A stretch of DNA of 64,000 bases from positions 2,108,001 to 2,172,000 of the forward strand of contig NZ_CP035300.1 in the NCBI RefSeq assembly GCF_004114615.1, given 5' to 3'. Position 1 is the first letter of the stretch, and each line of letters opens with the position of its first letter. The notes below the pieces were generated by a model. It was not told the origin of the DNA, did no database searches, and saw only the letters and a list, made by a program, of their open reading frames with translations. Shown piece after piece: positions 9,893 to 63,954 of this stretch. The DNA comes from Dyella sp. M7H15-1 (GTDB taxonomy: Bacteria > Pseudomonadota > Gammaproteobacteria > Xanthomonadales > Rhodanobacteraceae). The position numbers and the translations under genes were made by a program.

Positions 9893-10510
9893 ATGAAACC
9901 GATGCATGTGCATCGCAGGCAGACGAAGGGATTCACGGTGGTGGAACTGGTGGTGGTGATTGCCATCATCGCCATCATTACGGTCTTTGGCATTCCCTCT
10001 TACAAGAGTGTCATCACCCAAAACCGCATGGCGGGCGAGATCAACGATCTGGCTACTGACGTCGAGTTGGCGCGTTCTGCCGCGGTCAAGCAAGGCTTGA
10101 CAGTGACCATCTGCCCATCGACCGATCCTACGGTCAGTCCTTCCGGTACAACACCGTCGTGCACCGCCAATACCGAGTGGAACACTGGATGGATCGTGTT
10201 TACCGACGTCAGCGGTAATCAAACTTTCAATACCAATACAGGCGACGTGCTGCTGCACGCCCACGGCCCTTTCACCGGTACCGACACACTGGTTTCTACC
10301 TCGACAAAGGTGACGTTGCAATTCGTTACCTTCAACCGCATGGGCGGCACGGGCAGCTTTAGTACATCGCCCACGGATGCCAACACCGGCACGCTGACCT
10401 TGCATGACGCCACCAACAACGTGAACTGGCGCCGCTGTGTGCAGTTGTCCGAAGCGGGCACCATCACCGTGAATTCACCGCAAAACAGCACCCAGAGTCA
10501 GTGCCCATGA
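9893..10510 (+). CDS. fimU: Type IV minor pilin, GspH/FimT family (FimU-like)
   Basis: First gene of the minor-pilin operon. A short basic leader (KG|FTVVELVVVIAII) has the prepilin peptidase site with Glu5 present, followed by the hydrophobic N-terminal helix and a GspH-type globular domain; paired Cys (SCTAN... and RRCVQL...QCP) may form disulfides. FimU with PilVWXE forms the priming tip complex that starts pilus assembly and connects PilY1. Its TGA at 10508-10510 overlaps the ATG of the next gene, so pilV translation is probably coupled to it. The 5' gap (9664-9892) shows nothing recognisable beyond promoter room. Confidence 0.88.
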   Translation: MKPMHVHRRQTKGFTVVELVVVIAIIAIITVFGIPSYKSVITQNRMAGEINDLATDVELARSAAVKQGLTVTICPSTDPTVSPSGTTPSCTANTEWNTGWIVFTDVSGNQTFNTNTGDVLLHAHGPFTGTDTLVSTSTKVTLQFVTFNRMGGTGSFSTSPTDANTGTLTLHDATNNVNWRRCVQLSEAGTITVNSPQNSTQSQCP

Positions 10511-11220
10511 TTAAGGCAACGCTGAATAAGTATCACCGCCGTCACCAGCCCTGTCTGTCCGCATCCCTTCGGTCCGCCGTCTCGATAGACAGCCAGTCTA
10601 CCTTCGCCGTCGGCCCTATGGCCTGCGAACAGACAGGGCTGGTGACGGCGGTGATACTTATTCAGCGTTGCCTTAATCTTGCCTCTCATCGGACGCGCGG
10701 CTTCACCTTGTTGGAAGTGCTGGTCGCACTAGTGATTCTTTCCATCGGCCTGCTTGGCTTGGCAGCGATGCAGGCTTCTGCGTTATCCAGTACGCACGGC
10801 TCGCAATTGGAATCGATGGTGGCGATTCAGGCGCGCAGCCTGGCCGATGCGATGAGCGCCAATCCCGACTATTGGGCCAACACCTCGCCGACGTTTACCG
10901 TTACCGGCACAGGAAGCGCCTCCGACTCATCCAGCGGCCTGACCTTTACGGGCAGCCCGCCTACCTACTCGGGAAGTTGTTTCAACACCATTTGCCCAAC
11001 CTCTGCCGACGTAGCGGGCTACGACGTGCAGCTATGGGCAAACCAATTGCTGCTGCAGGTGCCGGGCTCCAAGGCCAGTATCGTCTGTTCGGCAAGCGCC
11101 CCAGTGGGTTGCAGCATCACGATCACCTGGACAGAGAAGTCGGCCGCCGCCGTCAACCAGGGCACCACCAATGCATCGGCTACCACAAACATGTCCTACA
11201 CGCTGGTGAACCAGATCTGA
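10507..11220 (+). CDS. pilV: Type IV minor pilin PilV with an element-derived N-terminal extension
   Basis: The core after the cleavage site (RG|FTLLEVLVALVILSIGL) is a standard PilV: Glu5, long hydrophobic helix and a small disulfide-containing head (CFNTICP). From the coupled ATG at 10507 (ATGA with fimU) the leader would be about 66 residues, far longer than the usual 5-25, because a hairpin element (10509-10678) occupies it in frame. An in-frame GTG at 10651, inside the element's right arm, would give a normal leader of about 19 residues. The gene therefore seems intact only if initiation moved or long leaders are tolerated. No frameshift is present. Confidence 0.85.
   Translation: MIKATLNKYHRRHQPCLSASLRSAVSIDSQSTFAVGPMACEQTGLVTAVILIQRCLNLASHRTRGFTLLEVLVALVILSIGLLGLAAMQASALSSTHGSQLESMVAIQARSLADAMSANPDYWANTSPTFTVTGTGSASDSSSGLTFTGSPPTYSGSCFNTICPTSADVAGYDVQLWANQLLLQVPGSKASIVCSASAPVGCSITITWTEKSAAAVNQGTTNASATTNMSYTLVNQI
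10509..10678. mobile_element. Long-stem hairpin element (MITE-like), copy 1, at pilV start
   Basis: Arms at 10509-10558 and 10629-10678 are a perfect 50-bp inverted repeat around a 70-base loop. The termini read GATTAAGGCAACGCTGAATA. The loop contains CCTTCGG, CGTCTCGA, CAGCCAG, CCTTCGCCG and TGGCCTGC, which recur in the same order (on the opposite strand) in the loop of the 63789-63954 element, so they are one family although their arms differ. It has no coding capacity of its own, so any movement would be in trans. No target duplication is evident. Confidence 0.75.
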
Positions 11221-39004: not shown

Positions 39005-39109
39005 GGCGTGCTTACCCTCGATAGCTCGACTAGGACGCCATTCTCGGTGGCTCAGGGCGAGGGGCTAAGCAATCTCAAAGCAATCAAAATCAAAGCGTTC
39101 ACATCGCGT

Positions 39110-39182
39110 AGGTTGGGGTGCAAACCCCAACATCGTCATCCATCACGAATCTCGATGTTGGGGTTTGCACCCCAACCTACAC
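39110..39182. repeat. GTAGGTTGGGG-type inverted repeat, copy 1
   Basis: GTAGGTTGGGGTGCAAACCC (from 39113) and its near-complement ending at 39181 form a 26-bp stem with a short loop; each arm also folds on itself. Two further copies lie at 40236-40262 (one arm) and 41802-41877 (both arms). It sits between fliC and fliM. Confidence 0.85.
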
Positions 39183-48536: not shown

Positions 48537-49888
48537 ATCAGCAGCGCTTCCATCTGCTCCATCGACGTGGCAAACGGCGCGGCTTCGTGCATGCCTTGCT
48601 GCAAATAGGCCGCCATCTGCGCGTGAAGTTCGACCGCGCGGTCGGTCCGTGGATCGGCGCCGGCCACGTAGCCGCCCAGCGGGATCAAGTCGCGCACCTG
48701 CGCGTACCGGCTGAGCAGGTCACGCCATTCGCGCATGCTGCCAAGATGTGATGCCGACACCACGTGCGTCATGCAGCGACTGACCGAACGCGTGACATCG
48801 ATCGCGGGATAGTGACCTTGCGCAGCAAGATCGCGCGATAACATGATGTGGCCGTCGAGAATCGCTCGCGCGGTATCGACCACCGGATCCTGCTCGTCAT
48901 CGCCTTCGGCCAGCACGGTGTAGATCGCACTCATACTGCCTGGTCCTTCGCCGTTGCCAGCGCTTTCCACCAGTGACGGCAACAGGCCGAACACCGACGG
49001 TGGATAGCCGCGTGTCGCAGGCGGCTCGCCCAAGGCCAGTGCCATTTCACGCTGCGCCATGGCGTAACGGGTCAGCGAATCGACCAGCAGCAACACATTG
49101 CTGCCATGGTCGCGGTAATGCGCGGCAACGGCATGACACAGTTCGGTGGCCATCAGGCGCATCAGCGGCGATTCGTCCGCCGGCGCCACCACGACCACCG
49201 CTTTCTTCAAACCTTCCGGACCGAGCGAATGTTCGATGAACTCGCGCACTTCGCGCCCACGCTCGCCGATCAATCCGACGACGACCACATCGGCTTCGGT
49301 CTGCCGCGTGATCATACCGAGCAAGACACTCTTGCCCACGCCACTGCCGGCGAACAGACCCACACGCTGCCCGCGACCCAGGGTAAGCATGCCGTTGATG
49401 GCGCGCACACCGACATCCAGCACACCCGATACAGGTTGCTTCTTCATCGGGTTGACGCGTGGCGGATGCAGGTTGAGCGGCTGATCGCCAAGCAATGGCC
49501 CCAGGCCATCGATCGGCTCGCCCAATCCGTCGATGACGCGACCGCGCCAGGTGGGGCCGATATGCAGACGGCGCTCATCCGAATCGGCCACCACGCGTGC
49601 GCCGGCCACTAGGCCGTGCTGCTTGCGGAAAGGCATGAGGTACGACACGTCGTTGCGGAAACCCACCACACGCGCATCCAGCCAGTCACCAGACGTGGTT
49701 TCGATACGCGTGCGCTGTCCGGTCTCGAATGCGTAACCAGTCGCTTCCAACAAGATACCGGATACGCCACTGAGCCTTCCTACTTCACGGGCGACCGGAA
49801 CGTCGTCGAGTTTAAACGCCTGCCCTAGCATGTCGCGCGGACTACGCGACATGCTAGGGCAGGCGTTTTGGTTCAGTGAACGGATCAT
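48533..49888 (-). CDS. fliI: Flagellar export ATPase FliI
   Basis: A 451-residue AAA-type ATPase related to F1-beta. Walker A GLFAGSGVGKS (about 172-182), VVGLIGERGREV, Walker B VLLLVDSLTRYA and the RGYPPSVF loop are present. The start overlaps fliH by ATGA. Codons 7-25 lie in a perfect 24-bp-arm palindrome (49814-49868), so the N-terminal 20 residues may be an inverted copy of later codons; Met 13 or Met 20 could be older starts. Confidence 0.93.
   Translation of the reverse strand: MIRSLNQNACPSMSRSPRDMLGQAFKLDDVPVAREVGRLSGVSGILLEATGYAFETGQRTRIETTSGDWLDARVVGFRNDVSYLMPFRKQHGLVAGARVVADSDERRLHIGPTWRGRVIDGLGEPIDGLGPLLGDQPLNLHPPRVNPMKKQPVSGVLDVGVRAINGMLTLGRGQRVGLFAGSGVGKSVLLGMITRQTEADVVVVGLIGERGREVREFIEHSLGPEGLKKAVVVVAPADESPLMRLMATELCHAVAAHYRDHGSNVLLLVDSLTRYAMAQREMALALGEPPATRGYPPSVFGLLPSLVESAGNGEGPGSMSAIYTVLAEGDDEQDPVVDTARAILDGHIMLSRDLAAQGHYPAIDVTRSVSRCMTHVVSASHLGSMREWRDLLSRYAQVRDLIPLGGYVAGADPRTDRAVELHAQMAAYLQQGMHEAAPFATSMEQMEALLI
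49814..49868. repeat. Perfect palindrome inside the 5' coding region of fliI
   Basis: Arms 49814-49837 and 49845-49868 are perfectly complementary over 24 bases (starting AAACGCCTGCCCTAGCATGT) with a 7-base loop. The arm nearer the gene body continues smoothly into fliI coding sequence (RDMLGQAFKLDD), so the outer arm looks like its inverted copy. In mRNA it would form a very stable hairpin about 20 bases after the start codon. Confidence 0.85.
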
Positions 49889-58188: not shown

Positions 58189-58416
58189 GCATCCGATTAC
58201 ACACATCCGAAACATCAGATGAGTGATCCCTCTCCCTCCGGGAGAGGGTGTCGGCAGGCGGGTGAGGGTCCGGACGAAGCGAGCGATTCAGTTCTCGCAC
58301 AAGTCTTTGTTTTCGCGCCCTGGCCGCACCCTCACCCCAACCCTCTCCCGGAGGGAGAGGGGCTCACGCCCACTCATCCAGCCTGACATCGAAAAAAGAT
58401 GTGTGTGATCGGATGC
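58189..58416. repeat. 228-bp nested palindrome downstream of fimT
   Basis: Outer arms GCATCCGATTACACACATC (58189-58207) and its complement (58398-58416) pair with one mismatch. Inside, two copies of the hairpin CCCTCTCCCTCCGGGAGAGG (58228-58247 and, inverted, 58341-58361) and inverted GTGAGGGT/ACCCTCAC words make a second layer. The inner part is like the GGGAGAGGG repeats widely dispersed in gammaproteobacteria. No gene lies in 58187-58550. Confidence 0.75.
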
Positions 58417-62511: not shown

Positions 62512-63672
62512 TCACTTCGCGGCGGCCACGGCTTTCTTCGCCGCGTCGTTGAGATCGTCAGCCGGCGTAATGGCCAGGCCGGAGTTGGCCAGCAGCTCGC
62601 GGCCCTTCTCGACGTTGGTGCCCTGCAGGCGCACCACCACCGGAATCTTCAGGCCCACTTCCTTCACTGCGGCGATGATGCCCTCGGCGATCATGTCGCA
62701 GCGGACGATGCCGCCGAAGATGTTGACCAGGATGGCCTTCACCTTGTCGGAAGAGGTGATGAGCTTGAATGCCTCGGTCACGCGTTCCTTGGTGGCGCCG
62801 CCGCCGACGTCGAGGAAGTTGGCCGGCTCGCCGCCCGCCAGCTTGATCACGTCCATGGTGGCCATGGCCAGGCCCGCGCCGTTGACCATGCAGCCGATGT
62901 TGCCGTCCATGGTCACGTAGTTGAGGTTGTGCTGCACGGCCGCCGCTTCGGCGGCGTCTTCCTGGGTGAGGTCGCGCATCTTGGCCAGGTCCGCATGACG
63001 GAACTCGGCGTTGTCGTCGGAATTGACCTTGCCGTCGAGCGCGGCGAGGTTGCCGTCTTCGAGAATGGCGAGCGGGTTCAGCTCGACCAGCGACAGGTCT
63101 TTCTCGTTGAACAGCTTGTACAAGCCCAGCATGATCTTGGTGAGCTGGGTGACCTGCTTGGGGTTCAGGTCCATCGCGAAGCCGAGTTGGCGGCACTGGT
63201 ACGGCTGCAGACCTTCGACGAAATCCACCACGATGGTGTGGATATCATCCGGCGTTTCTTTGGCAACCTGCTCGATGTCCACGCCACCGTGTTTGGAGGC
63301 GATGAAGGTGACGGCCTTGCTGTCGCGGTCGACCAGGATCGACAGGTACAGCTCTTTAGCGATATTGGTGGCATCGGTCACCAGCACCAGATTCACCGGC
63401 AGCGCACGGCCAGCCGACTGGTAGGTTTCCATGTTTTTGCCCAGCATGCCCTTGGCGGCGGCATGGACATCGTCCAGGCTCTTGCAGAACTTGACGCCAC
63501 CGGCCTTGCCGCGGCCACCTGCGTGGATCTGGGCCTTGACCATCCATTGCGAACCGCCAAGGTGCTTGGCGGCGTCGACAGCGGCGTCGGGGGAGTTGGC
63601 GACTTTGCCCGGCGGCACGGCGATGCCGTAATGCGCGAACAGCTCTTTGGCCTGGTACTCGTGGAAATTCAT
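62512..63672 (-). CDS. sucC: Succinyl-CoA ligase beta subunit
   Basis: A 386-residue ATP-grasp subunit making ATP or GTP from succinyl-CoA with SucD. It opens [17 protein letters not shown], has [17 protein letters not shown] for nucleotide binding, ELNPLAIL for magnesium, and [14 protein letters not shown] with [10 protein letters not shown] near the C-terminus. The long-stem element lies 117 bases upstream of its ATG. Confidence 0.98.
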
Positions 63673-63788: not shown

Positions 63789-63954
63789 GGGATGCTCTGA
63801 TCAATTTTTTGTGGGTGCCACCGCTGCTGTCCGATTGCAGACCACAGGACCATCGGCGAAGGCAGGCTGGCTGGCTGGCTGTCGAGACGATAGTCCGAAG
63901 GCATGCAGTCGGACAGCAGCGGTGGCACCCACAAAAAATTGATCAGAGCATCCC
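63789..63954. mobile_element. Long-stem hairpin element (MITE-like), copy 2, upstream of sucC
   Basis: Arms at 63789-63834 and 63909-63954 form a perfect 46-bp inverted repeat (ends GGGATGCTCTGATCAATTTT) around a 74-base loop. The loop, read on the minus strand, shares CCTTCGG, CGTCTCGA, CAGCCAG, CCTTCGCCG and TGG-CTGC in order with copy 1 at pilV. Arms share only CTGA-AA and CACC...CTGTCCG with copy 1. Its place ahead of sucC means it could alter the operon's leader or promoter. Nothing else is seen from 63955 to 64000. Confidence 0.75.

Follow-up and report, generated by a model that had tools for sequence, protein, structure and literature searches.

The locus studied here raises the question of how two hairpins of one genome can share a loop, differ in their stems and still be perfectly paired, each within itself. 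The window, i.e. the whole stretch of 64,000 nucleotides that was analysed, belongs to the genome of Dyella sp. M7H15-1 (3.52 Mb, single contig). Its two longest hairpins, with arms within 400 bp, were found to be copy 1, with perfect 50-bp arms (10509..10558 and 10629..10678), and copy 2, with perfect 46-bp arms (63789..63834 and 63909..63954); the next has arms of 28 bp. Further perfect hairpins, with arms of 24 and 22 bp, were seen at 49814-49868 and 58228-58361. The folding energies were -128.9 kcal/mol (z = -18.4) for copy 1 and -144.2 kcal/mol (z = -17.3) for copy 2, and none of 200 dinucleotide shuffles was as stable in either case. Both copies carry the same hairpin module of about 100 bp, named B, located at 10543..10644 in copy 1, where the family orientation is that of the minus strand, and at 63819..63924 in copy 2 (plus strand); a second hairpin, named C, is absent from both. 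The perfect arms and related loops described in the initial annotation were thus confirmed, and the similarity of the loops is real.

The same annotation had stressed the strong difference between the arms of the two copies, and this can be retained only in part. Mirrored, copy-specific changes within subfamilies are real. A good part of the difference, on the other hand, reflects subfamily membership: copy 1 belongs to the TTAA subfamily and copy 2 to the GGATGCTCTGA subfamily, so that a comparison of these two alone overstates the divergence.

Identity and distribution of the element

The window hairpins are non-autonomous IS5-type transposable elements (MITEs) of Dyella and its relatives, bacteria of the soil. 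The initial annotation had set them apart from ordinary MITEs, a view that has to be given up given the TTAA duplication, the empty site and the transposase-bearing IS5-type relatives described below. The IS5 family is defined by an IS5-type DDE transposase together with a 4-bp YTAR duplication. Copy 1 (10511..10676, no strand assigned, hairpin B only) consists of an element at 10515-10672 between two TTAA sequences (10511-10514 and 10673-10676), and its palindrome extends 2 bp beyond each TTAA (10509-10678) through chance GA/TC flanks. It sits in the first codons of a pilV-like prepilin gene (10501..11220, plus strand), which was named from its content and neighbours and in which Pfam recognises only N_methyl, the N-terminal methylation motif. 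The stop codon of the upstream prepilin-like gene (9893..10510, plus strand), which we take to be fimT-like, overlaps the pilV start. Copy 1 separates the ATG at 10507 from the motif GFTLLEVL; it adds 162 bp, or 54 codons, and stays open in the pilV frame by happenstance. Without copy 1 the start of the gene reads MINLASHRTRGFTLLEVL. The empty site, which the initial annotation had proposed to look for in sister strains, was found in a relative (L299, genome G002), where it reads ATGATCAATCTTGCC; excision of the insert predicts ATGATTAATCTTGCC. The insert is also absent from L298 and L302, which completes the three relatives read at the pilV site. An internal GTG (GTGATACTTATTCAG...) within 10501-10680 is a possible new start, with a short prepilin leader.

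Copy 2 (63789..63954, likewise with no strand assigned and hairpin B only) is situated upstream of an adjoining gene that, from its sequence, is presumably sucC-like (62512..63672, minus strand) and that served as the anchor for the ortholog and empty-site comparison. Module B was absent from this locus in 14 of the 15 other genomes of the genus (L340 being partly masked), and a clean 4-bp target duplication, looked for at the flanks of copy 2, was not found. The ortholog in G002 (L343) has the full form, with B and C, at the same site, and the flanks match up to the element ends within 2 bp. Past the terminal repeat the arm of L343 runs into C, while that of window copy 2 continues, perfectly complementary, into B. 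Copy 2 may have lost C, leaving the perfect 46-bp stem; alternatively, the other lineage may have gained it. In the case of a loss, an arm rewritten from its partner would yield such a perfect stem, and exact deletion may also have been the route.

The full element, of about 290 bp, is composed of a terminal repeat of about 27 bp, the sequence GTCACC, hairpin B (about 100 bp), a linker, hairpin C (about 98 bp) and the second terminal repeat, and would fold as a three-way junction. Sizes range from 158 bp (copy 1 minus its duplications) to this full length, and the elements are non-coding, shorter than about 500 bp and multicopy. As module B is quasi-palindromic, it was first counted on both strands, and the 329 matches were collapsed to 181 non-redundant loci, gathered from 80 places among the search matches listed and from further searches. 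These 181 loci are a sample of collected sequences and no census, and decayed copies are under-represented among them because they were fetched from a sample of the matches. Hairpin C was located to the right of B in 135 loci and to its left in 2, and was undetected in 44. A recognisable second end was present in 156 of the 181 loci (126 with C and 30 without).

A search of the host genome with copy 1 returned 82 matches, many of them one place seen on both strands. Across the genus, copy 1 had a match in all 16 genomes and module B was clear in 14; G001 and G006 gave only weak best matches to copy 1, of 27 and 31 bases. With a 29-letter degenerate pattern of the core, 86 stretches were recovered, whose titles name Dyella, Rhodanobacter, a Lysobacterales MAG and one Eremiobacteraeota MAG. 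The last of these (L148, CAJCJD010000239.1, titled Candidatus Eremiobacteraeota) is probably a mislabelled MAG (compare contig C239 of G015, which belongs to this genus).

Two terminal-repeat subfamilies were distinguished in the window genome, TTAA-GGCAACGCTGAATAAGT with 49 ends (up to 3 mismatches) and GGATGCTCTGATCAATT with 44 ends. The element flanks are often TTAA, CTAG or TTAG, i.e. of the YTAR type. Ends of the GGATGCTCTGA type bound both sides of three longer copies of 0.9-1.2 kb (L052, L055 and L074), and L052 and L055 have matching TTAG flanks on both sides. Positions 872-1735 of L074 contain a 287-aa transposase frame with the Pfam domains DUF772 and DDE_Tnp_1; the transposase frame of L052 is broken. 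The link to a transposase concerns the subfamily of copy 2; an autonomous member of the TTAA subfamily, to which copy 1 belongs, was not identified. Relatives of the L074 transposase were found in 8 of the 16 genomes of the genus. The element ends presumably resemble those of IS5 itself; between copies, the outermost bases are kept and much of the 27-bp repeat is copy-specific.

Solo arms made up 33 of the 49 TTAA-subfamily ends (genome G000, loci L033-L102). At L065, L091 and L093, target sequence was observed on both sides of a remnant of 23-26 bp, such as a deletion of the hairpin between short repeats would leave. Four further loci (L062, L082, L057 and L072) are palindromic relatives that measure only about 20-57 bp; they share the ends of the element, and the flanks of three are YTAR-like. 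When the window was compared with Rfam at gathering scores, only two tRNAs were matched; no described RNA family matches the element, and a known RNA family was accordingly rejected as its identity.

Change of the arms within and between copies

In the 105 copies of the GGATGC subfamily that contain C, the arms within a copy were identical at 25.79 of 27 positions on average, against a permuted mean of 20.0, and never more than 20.58, when right arms were exchanged among these copies (2000 shuffles). Deviations from the consensus were mirrored in 419 cases, including 156 transversions, restricted to one arm in 119, and present in both arms but different in 8. If the arms were independent, 93 mirrored deviations would be expected from the column frequencies; since the copies are related by descent, these paralog counts are not independent events. 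The one-arm differences cluster at repeat positions 23-24 (51 of 119).

The initial annotation had regarded identical arms in other copies, and imperfect pairing, as damaging to its reading. Near-identical arms do exist, in eight two-ended TTAA-subfamily copies of the window genome, and these showed four mirrored and no one-arm substitutions (first 26 bases, compared by eye). Imperfect pairing was also found in many copies, the mean number of arm mismatches per 27 being 1.3 in copies with C and 3.1 in those without detected C, values far below the expectation for independent mutation.

The stem columns of module B likewise switch between pair types with few intermediates (97 unique sequences, aligned on sequence alone). 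At column pair 7-100, for example, GC was found in 45 sequences, CG in 25, AT in 24 and other combinations in 3. In the outer stem of B, the share of two-sided changes was 1 of 10 in the closest copies (up to 3 differences) and rose to 0.77. One-sided differences per pair reached a plateau of 0.05-0.08 between copies and fell to 0.02 in the most diverged bin; two-sided differences kept growing with divergence, to 0.25-0.33. The interior of hairpin B was inverted between unchanged arms in 2 of 137 copies with C (L112 and L270). These two copies share a short linker, and the inversion is possibly one event that was spread by transposition.

In order to read changes at a fixed site, ortholog pairs were defined as insertions whose flanks are collinear on either side between two species. 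Three pairs (L105/L281, L214/L124 and L214/L295) were excluded as orthologs because the two copies differ in terminal-repeat subfamily. A seven-pair set, which includes L123/L130 and excludes L267/L139, gave 23 two-sided and 16 one-sided changes, with 6.85 two-sided expected. As the flanks of both these pairs show a gap of about 22 bp, the count was repeated with three other sets. The strict set of six pairs (flanks within 3 bp; left side of the L285/L296 alignment judged by eye) comprises 162 stem pairs, of which 15 were changed on two sides and 16 on one; 4.07 two-sided changes were expected and none of 20000 simulations reached 15. Nine loci with one pair each gave 35 two-sided and 28 one-sided changes in 243 stem pairs (13.7 two-sided expected, 0 of 20000 simulations). 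All eleven pairs, in which the trio L123/L130/L232 is non-independent, gave 46 and 41, respectively, in 297 stem pairs (19.2 two-sided expected).

Window copy 2 differs from its ortholog L343 by five mirrored changes and one one-arm change. The arms of L285/L296 have no close counterpart among the other copies collected, the best of which agrees at 33 of 54 letters, and differ between the two species by two mirrored changes, one of them a transversion. No mirrored terminal-repeat change was observed in L111/L165 and L253/L257, which have two and four one-arm changes, respectively; hairpin B of L111/L165 has five one-arm and no mirrored changes. The divergence of the terminal repeats was 0.173, and that of the 100-bp flanks, which are partly coding, was 0.170 (nine aligned pairs, three of them from one locus; L253/L257, L232/L130 and L123/L232 were out of register owing to indels). 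The ortholog comparison shows that the covariation arises after insertion. The earlier proposal, that the arms covary across copies and that either arm copying or selection for pairing is needed, is upheld.

Another family of hairpins in the same genomes was compared. A GTAG-type REP pair was found at 39108-39180 of the window, with 28-bp arms and a loop of about 17 bp; it has very many copies, with matches in 6 of the 16 genomes of the genus. The family was named after its GTAG start and the literature entry PMC3733652. Among 15 well-aligned copies, one clear mirrored change was seen and the differences were otherwise one-armed; L356, L361 and L368 are misaligned or strongly diverged. L368 shows eight mirrored and five one-arm departures from the reference, and is either misaligned or a diverged copy with mirrored arms. 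The REP-pair family does not behave as general hairpin correction would predict, and it is a poor control, since its arms may be separately mobile. A general, genome-wide correction of hairpins was rejected, as this family is mostly without mirrored change; the family is not counted as a clean control, its arms being probably separately mobile.

Origin of the matched arms

The explanation that we favour, with a probability of roughly two in three (0.68), is that these MITE copies are for the most part neutral and that template switching within the hairpin homogenises their arms. The elements move as MITEs into YTAR-type sites, as the flanks, a target duplication and an empty site show. A terminal-repeat stem of at least 27 bp closes hairpins B and C; with B alone retained, as in the window copies, one long perfect hairpin is left. 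After insertion, a copy would mutate largely freely. Its strands would fold back, and one arm would repeatedly template the resynthesis of the other, by the template switching during replication that is called quasipalindrome correction. A new mutation in one arm would usually be erased or copied onto the partner arm, so that the arms would stay paired while drifting to copy-specific sequences. We infer that polymerase template switching, rather than another form of arm-to-arm conversion, does the copying.

When a two-site copying model was fitted, the best ratios of copying to mutation (c/mu) were 40 and 80 among the values 0, 5, 10, 20, 40, 80 and 160, and c = 0 fitted badly. The model under-predicts the two-sided changes at low divergence and the one-sided fall in the most diverged bin. 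Three features of quasipalindrome correction were looked for. The mirroring of an arm change on the partner, transversions included, is present as a pattern, and the inversion of the spacer is present in the two copies mentioned above; action on hairpins generally was not seen in the REP-pair family, poor control though it is.

Selection for pairing is the main rival. According to this explanation the folded RNA or DNA has a host function, e.g. in transcript stability or termination, and the mirrored changes are compensatory substitutions. We consider it unlikely on balance, and the evidence is divided. Unpaired internal columns recur in the consensus fold of module B (e.g. 24/83 and 28-30/77-79). 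Strong covariation alongside such consensus bulges in hairpin B favours selection, and recurrent unpaired columns such as 24/83 speak against copying, since correction should remove them. The low two-sided share among the closest B copies (1 of 10) counts on the same two sides, its rise with divergence being as selection would have it; further points against copying are the pairs L111/L165 and L253/L257, with their one-arm changes only, the clustering of mismatches at repeat positions 23-24 and the two under-predictions of the model. Selection could imitate the observed one- and two-sided kinetics; under it, however, the arms should change more slowly than the flanks, and no such slowdown is seen, as the terminal-repeat arms diverge as fast as the partly coding flanks.

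The mismatches that are tolerated also bear on this rival. Across 125 copies with C, the terminal-repeat stem contained 66 G·T and 63 A·C mismatches. Such equality is evidence against selection that acts on a single defined RNA strand, and the idea that an RNA strand constrains this stem in copies with C was rejected for this reason. The strand argument does not cover the 30 copies without detected C, where G·T exceeds A·C by 55 to 12, or the aligned outer stem of B, where the counts are 30 and 17 (without the wobble column pair 19-88); both excesses favour selection and argue against copying. For the 156 transversions among the 419 mirrored deviations, no G·U intermediate is possible, which counts against this rival. 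Selection would moreover need to act on most of many copies across many genomes. In its favour, the REP-pair hairpins are mostly without mirrored change, and the absence of an Rfam match at gathering scores leaves room for an undescribed RNA.

A much less probable explanation is that of ordinary MITE subfamilies, in which young copies carry the arms of a progenitor fitted to its own transposase and undergo no change after insertion. It agrees with the two clear subfamilies of the window genome and their many near-identical ends, and the arm variants of copy 1 recur elsewhere, so that its two mirrored differences may be inherited. It is contradicted by the mirrored changes that separate orthologous insertions, among them the two of L285/L296, whose arm sequence is unlike that of the other copies collected. 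Where no relative of the one transposase searched was detected (46 copies, 6 genomes), the arms were also matched, with 1.24 mismatches on average; the value was 2.04 in 49 copies from 8 genomes with such a relative, and this comparison leaves out 60 two-ended copies from named contigs. As the whole explanation, inherited subfamily differences are ruled out by the ortholog comparisons.

Ectopic gene conversion, by which both arms of a locus would be replaced at once by those of another copy, is the least probable of all. In its favour, recombination could start from modules B and C, which numerous copies within a genome share; the arms of some orthologs are of a common type (the copy nearest to L271 agrees at 51 of 54), and the neighbours of window copy 2 agree with it at 48 of 54. 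Conversion, however, moves mirrored arms without creating them, and no close donor was found among the sampled copies for L285/L296 (33 of 54) or L123 (41 of 54).

Whether two selected mutations or one copying event gives rise to paired changes in hairpins is an old question. A multicopy mobile hairpin with orthologs and flank-like arm divergence allows the rate of copying to be estimated with little selection, and its mirrored arms provide a naturally occurring record, open to counting, of a mutation process that as a rule is not easily separated from selection. We would give even odds to the wider statement that the long hairpins of mobile elements act here as self-copying inverted repeats, with arm rewriting some 40-80 times as frequent as point mutation, and that neutral loci thereby yield compensatory covariation without structural selection. 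If this is true, a test of covariation, the gold standard in the search for functional RNA, would wrongly call these elements functional structured RNAs, and covariation alone may not prove a functional RNA structure. Arm copying also offers a reason why a MITE keeps long matched arms of its own sequence.

Relation to known systems

IS5-type MITEs and homogenisation by template switching are each already known (PMC8604942, PMC8794818 and PMC10969869). In the open-access literature searched, neither this element nor a bacterial MITE with mirrored arms was found described. With bacterial IS5-derived MITEs the present elements share their short length, the lack of coding sequence, terminal repeats as in a transposase-bearing element, YTAR-type flanks, multiple copies and strong hairpins. 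They differ in their arms of 27-50 bp, which are copy-specific and evolve in step, and in having two internal hairpins that covary. In a 2024 review of prokaryotic MITEs (PMC10969869) the words "compensatory" and "hairpin" do not occur, and its extracts describe only stable stem-loop transcripts. GTAG-type REP/BIME sequences are likewise abundant palindromes in these genomes, but their arms are conserved between copies, their differences are mostly one-armed and their mobility system is another one.

Quasipalindrome correction has been reported in phage, E. coli, yeast and humans, and spacer inversion is a known by-product of template switching (PMC8604942, in its extracted passages). The homogenisation of arms and the inversion of a spacer are shared with the present case. 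In contrast to those reports, many copies of one element and orthologous insertions are available here, which provide a rough rate relative to point mutation, and the arms are 27-50 bp long and about 230 bp apart in the full form. Template switching in the hairpins of rRNA genes has been described, in the portion of PMC8794818 consulted, as producing compensatory changes in single events as well as loop inversions; those stems belong to a functional RNA under selection, whereas the arms studied here diverge like their flanks. Finally, the excerpt of PMC6649704 on the mitochondria of Nematomorpha reports coding palindromes, i.e. long perfect inverted repeats with matched arms. Those palindromes are found in mitochondrial protein genes, while ours are those of a transposable element.
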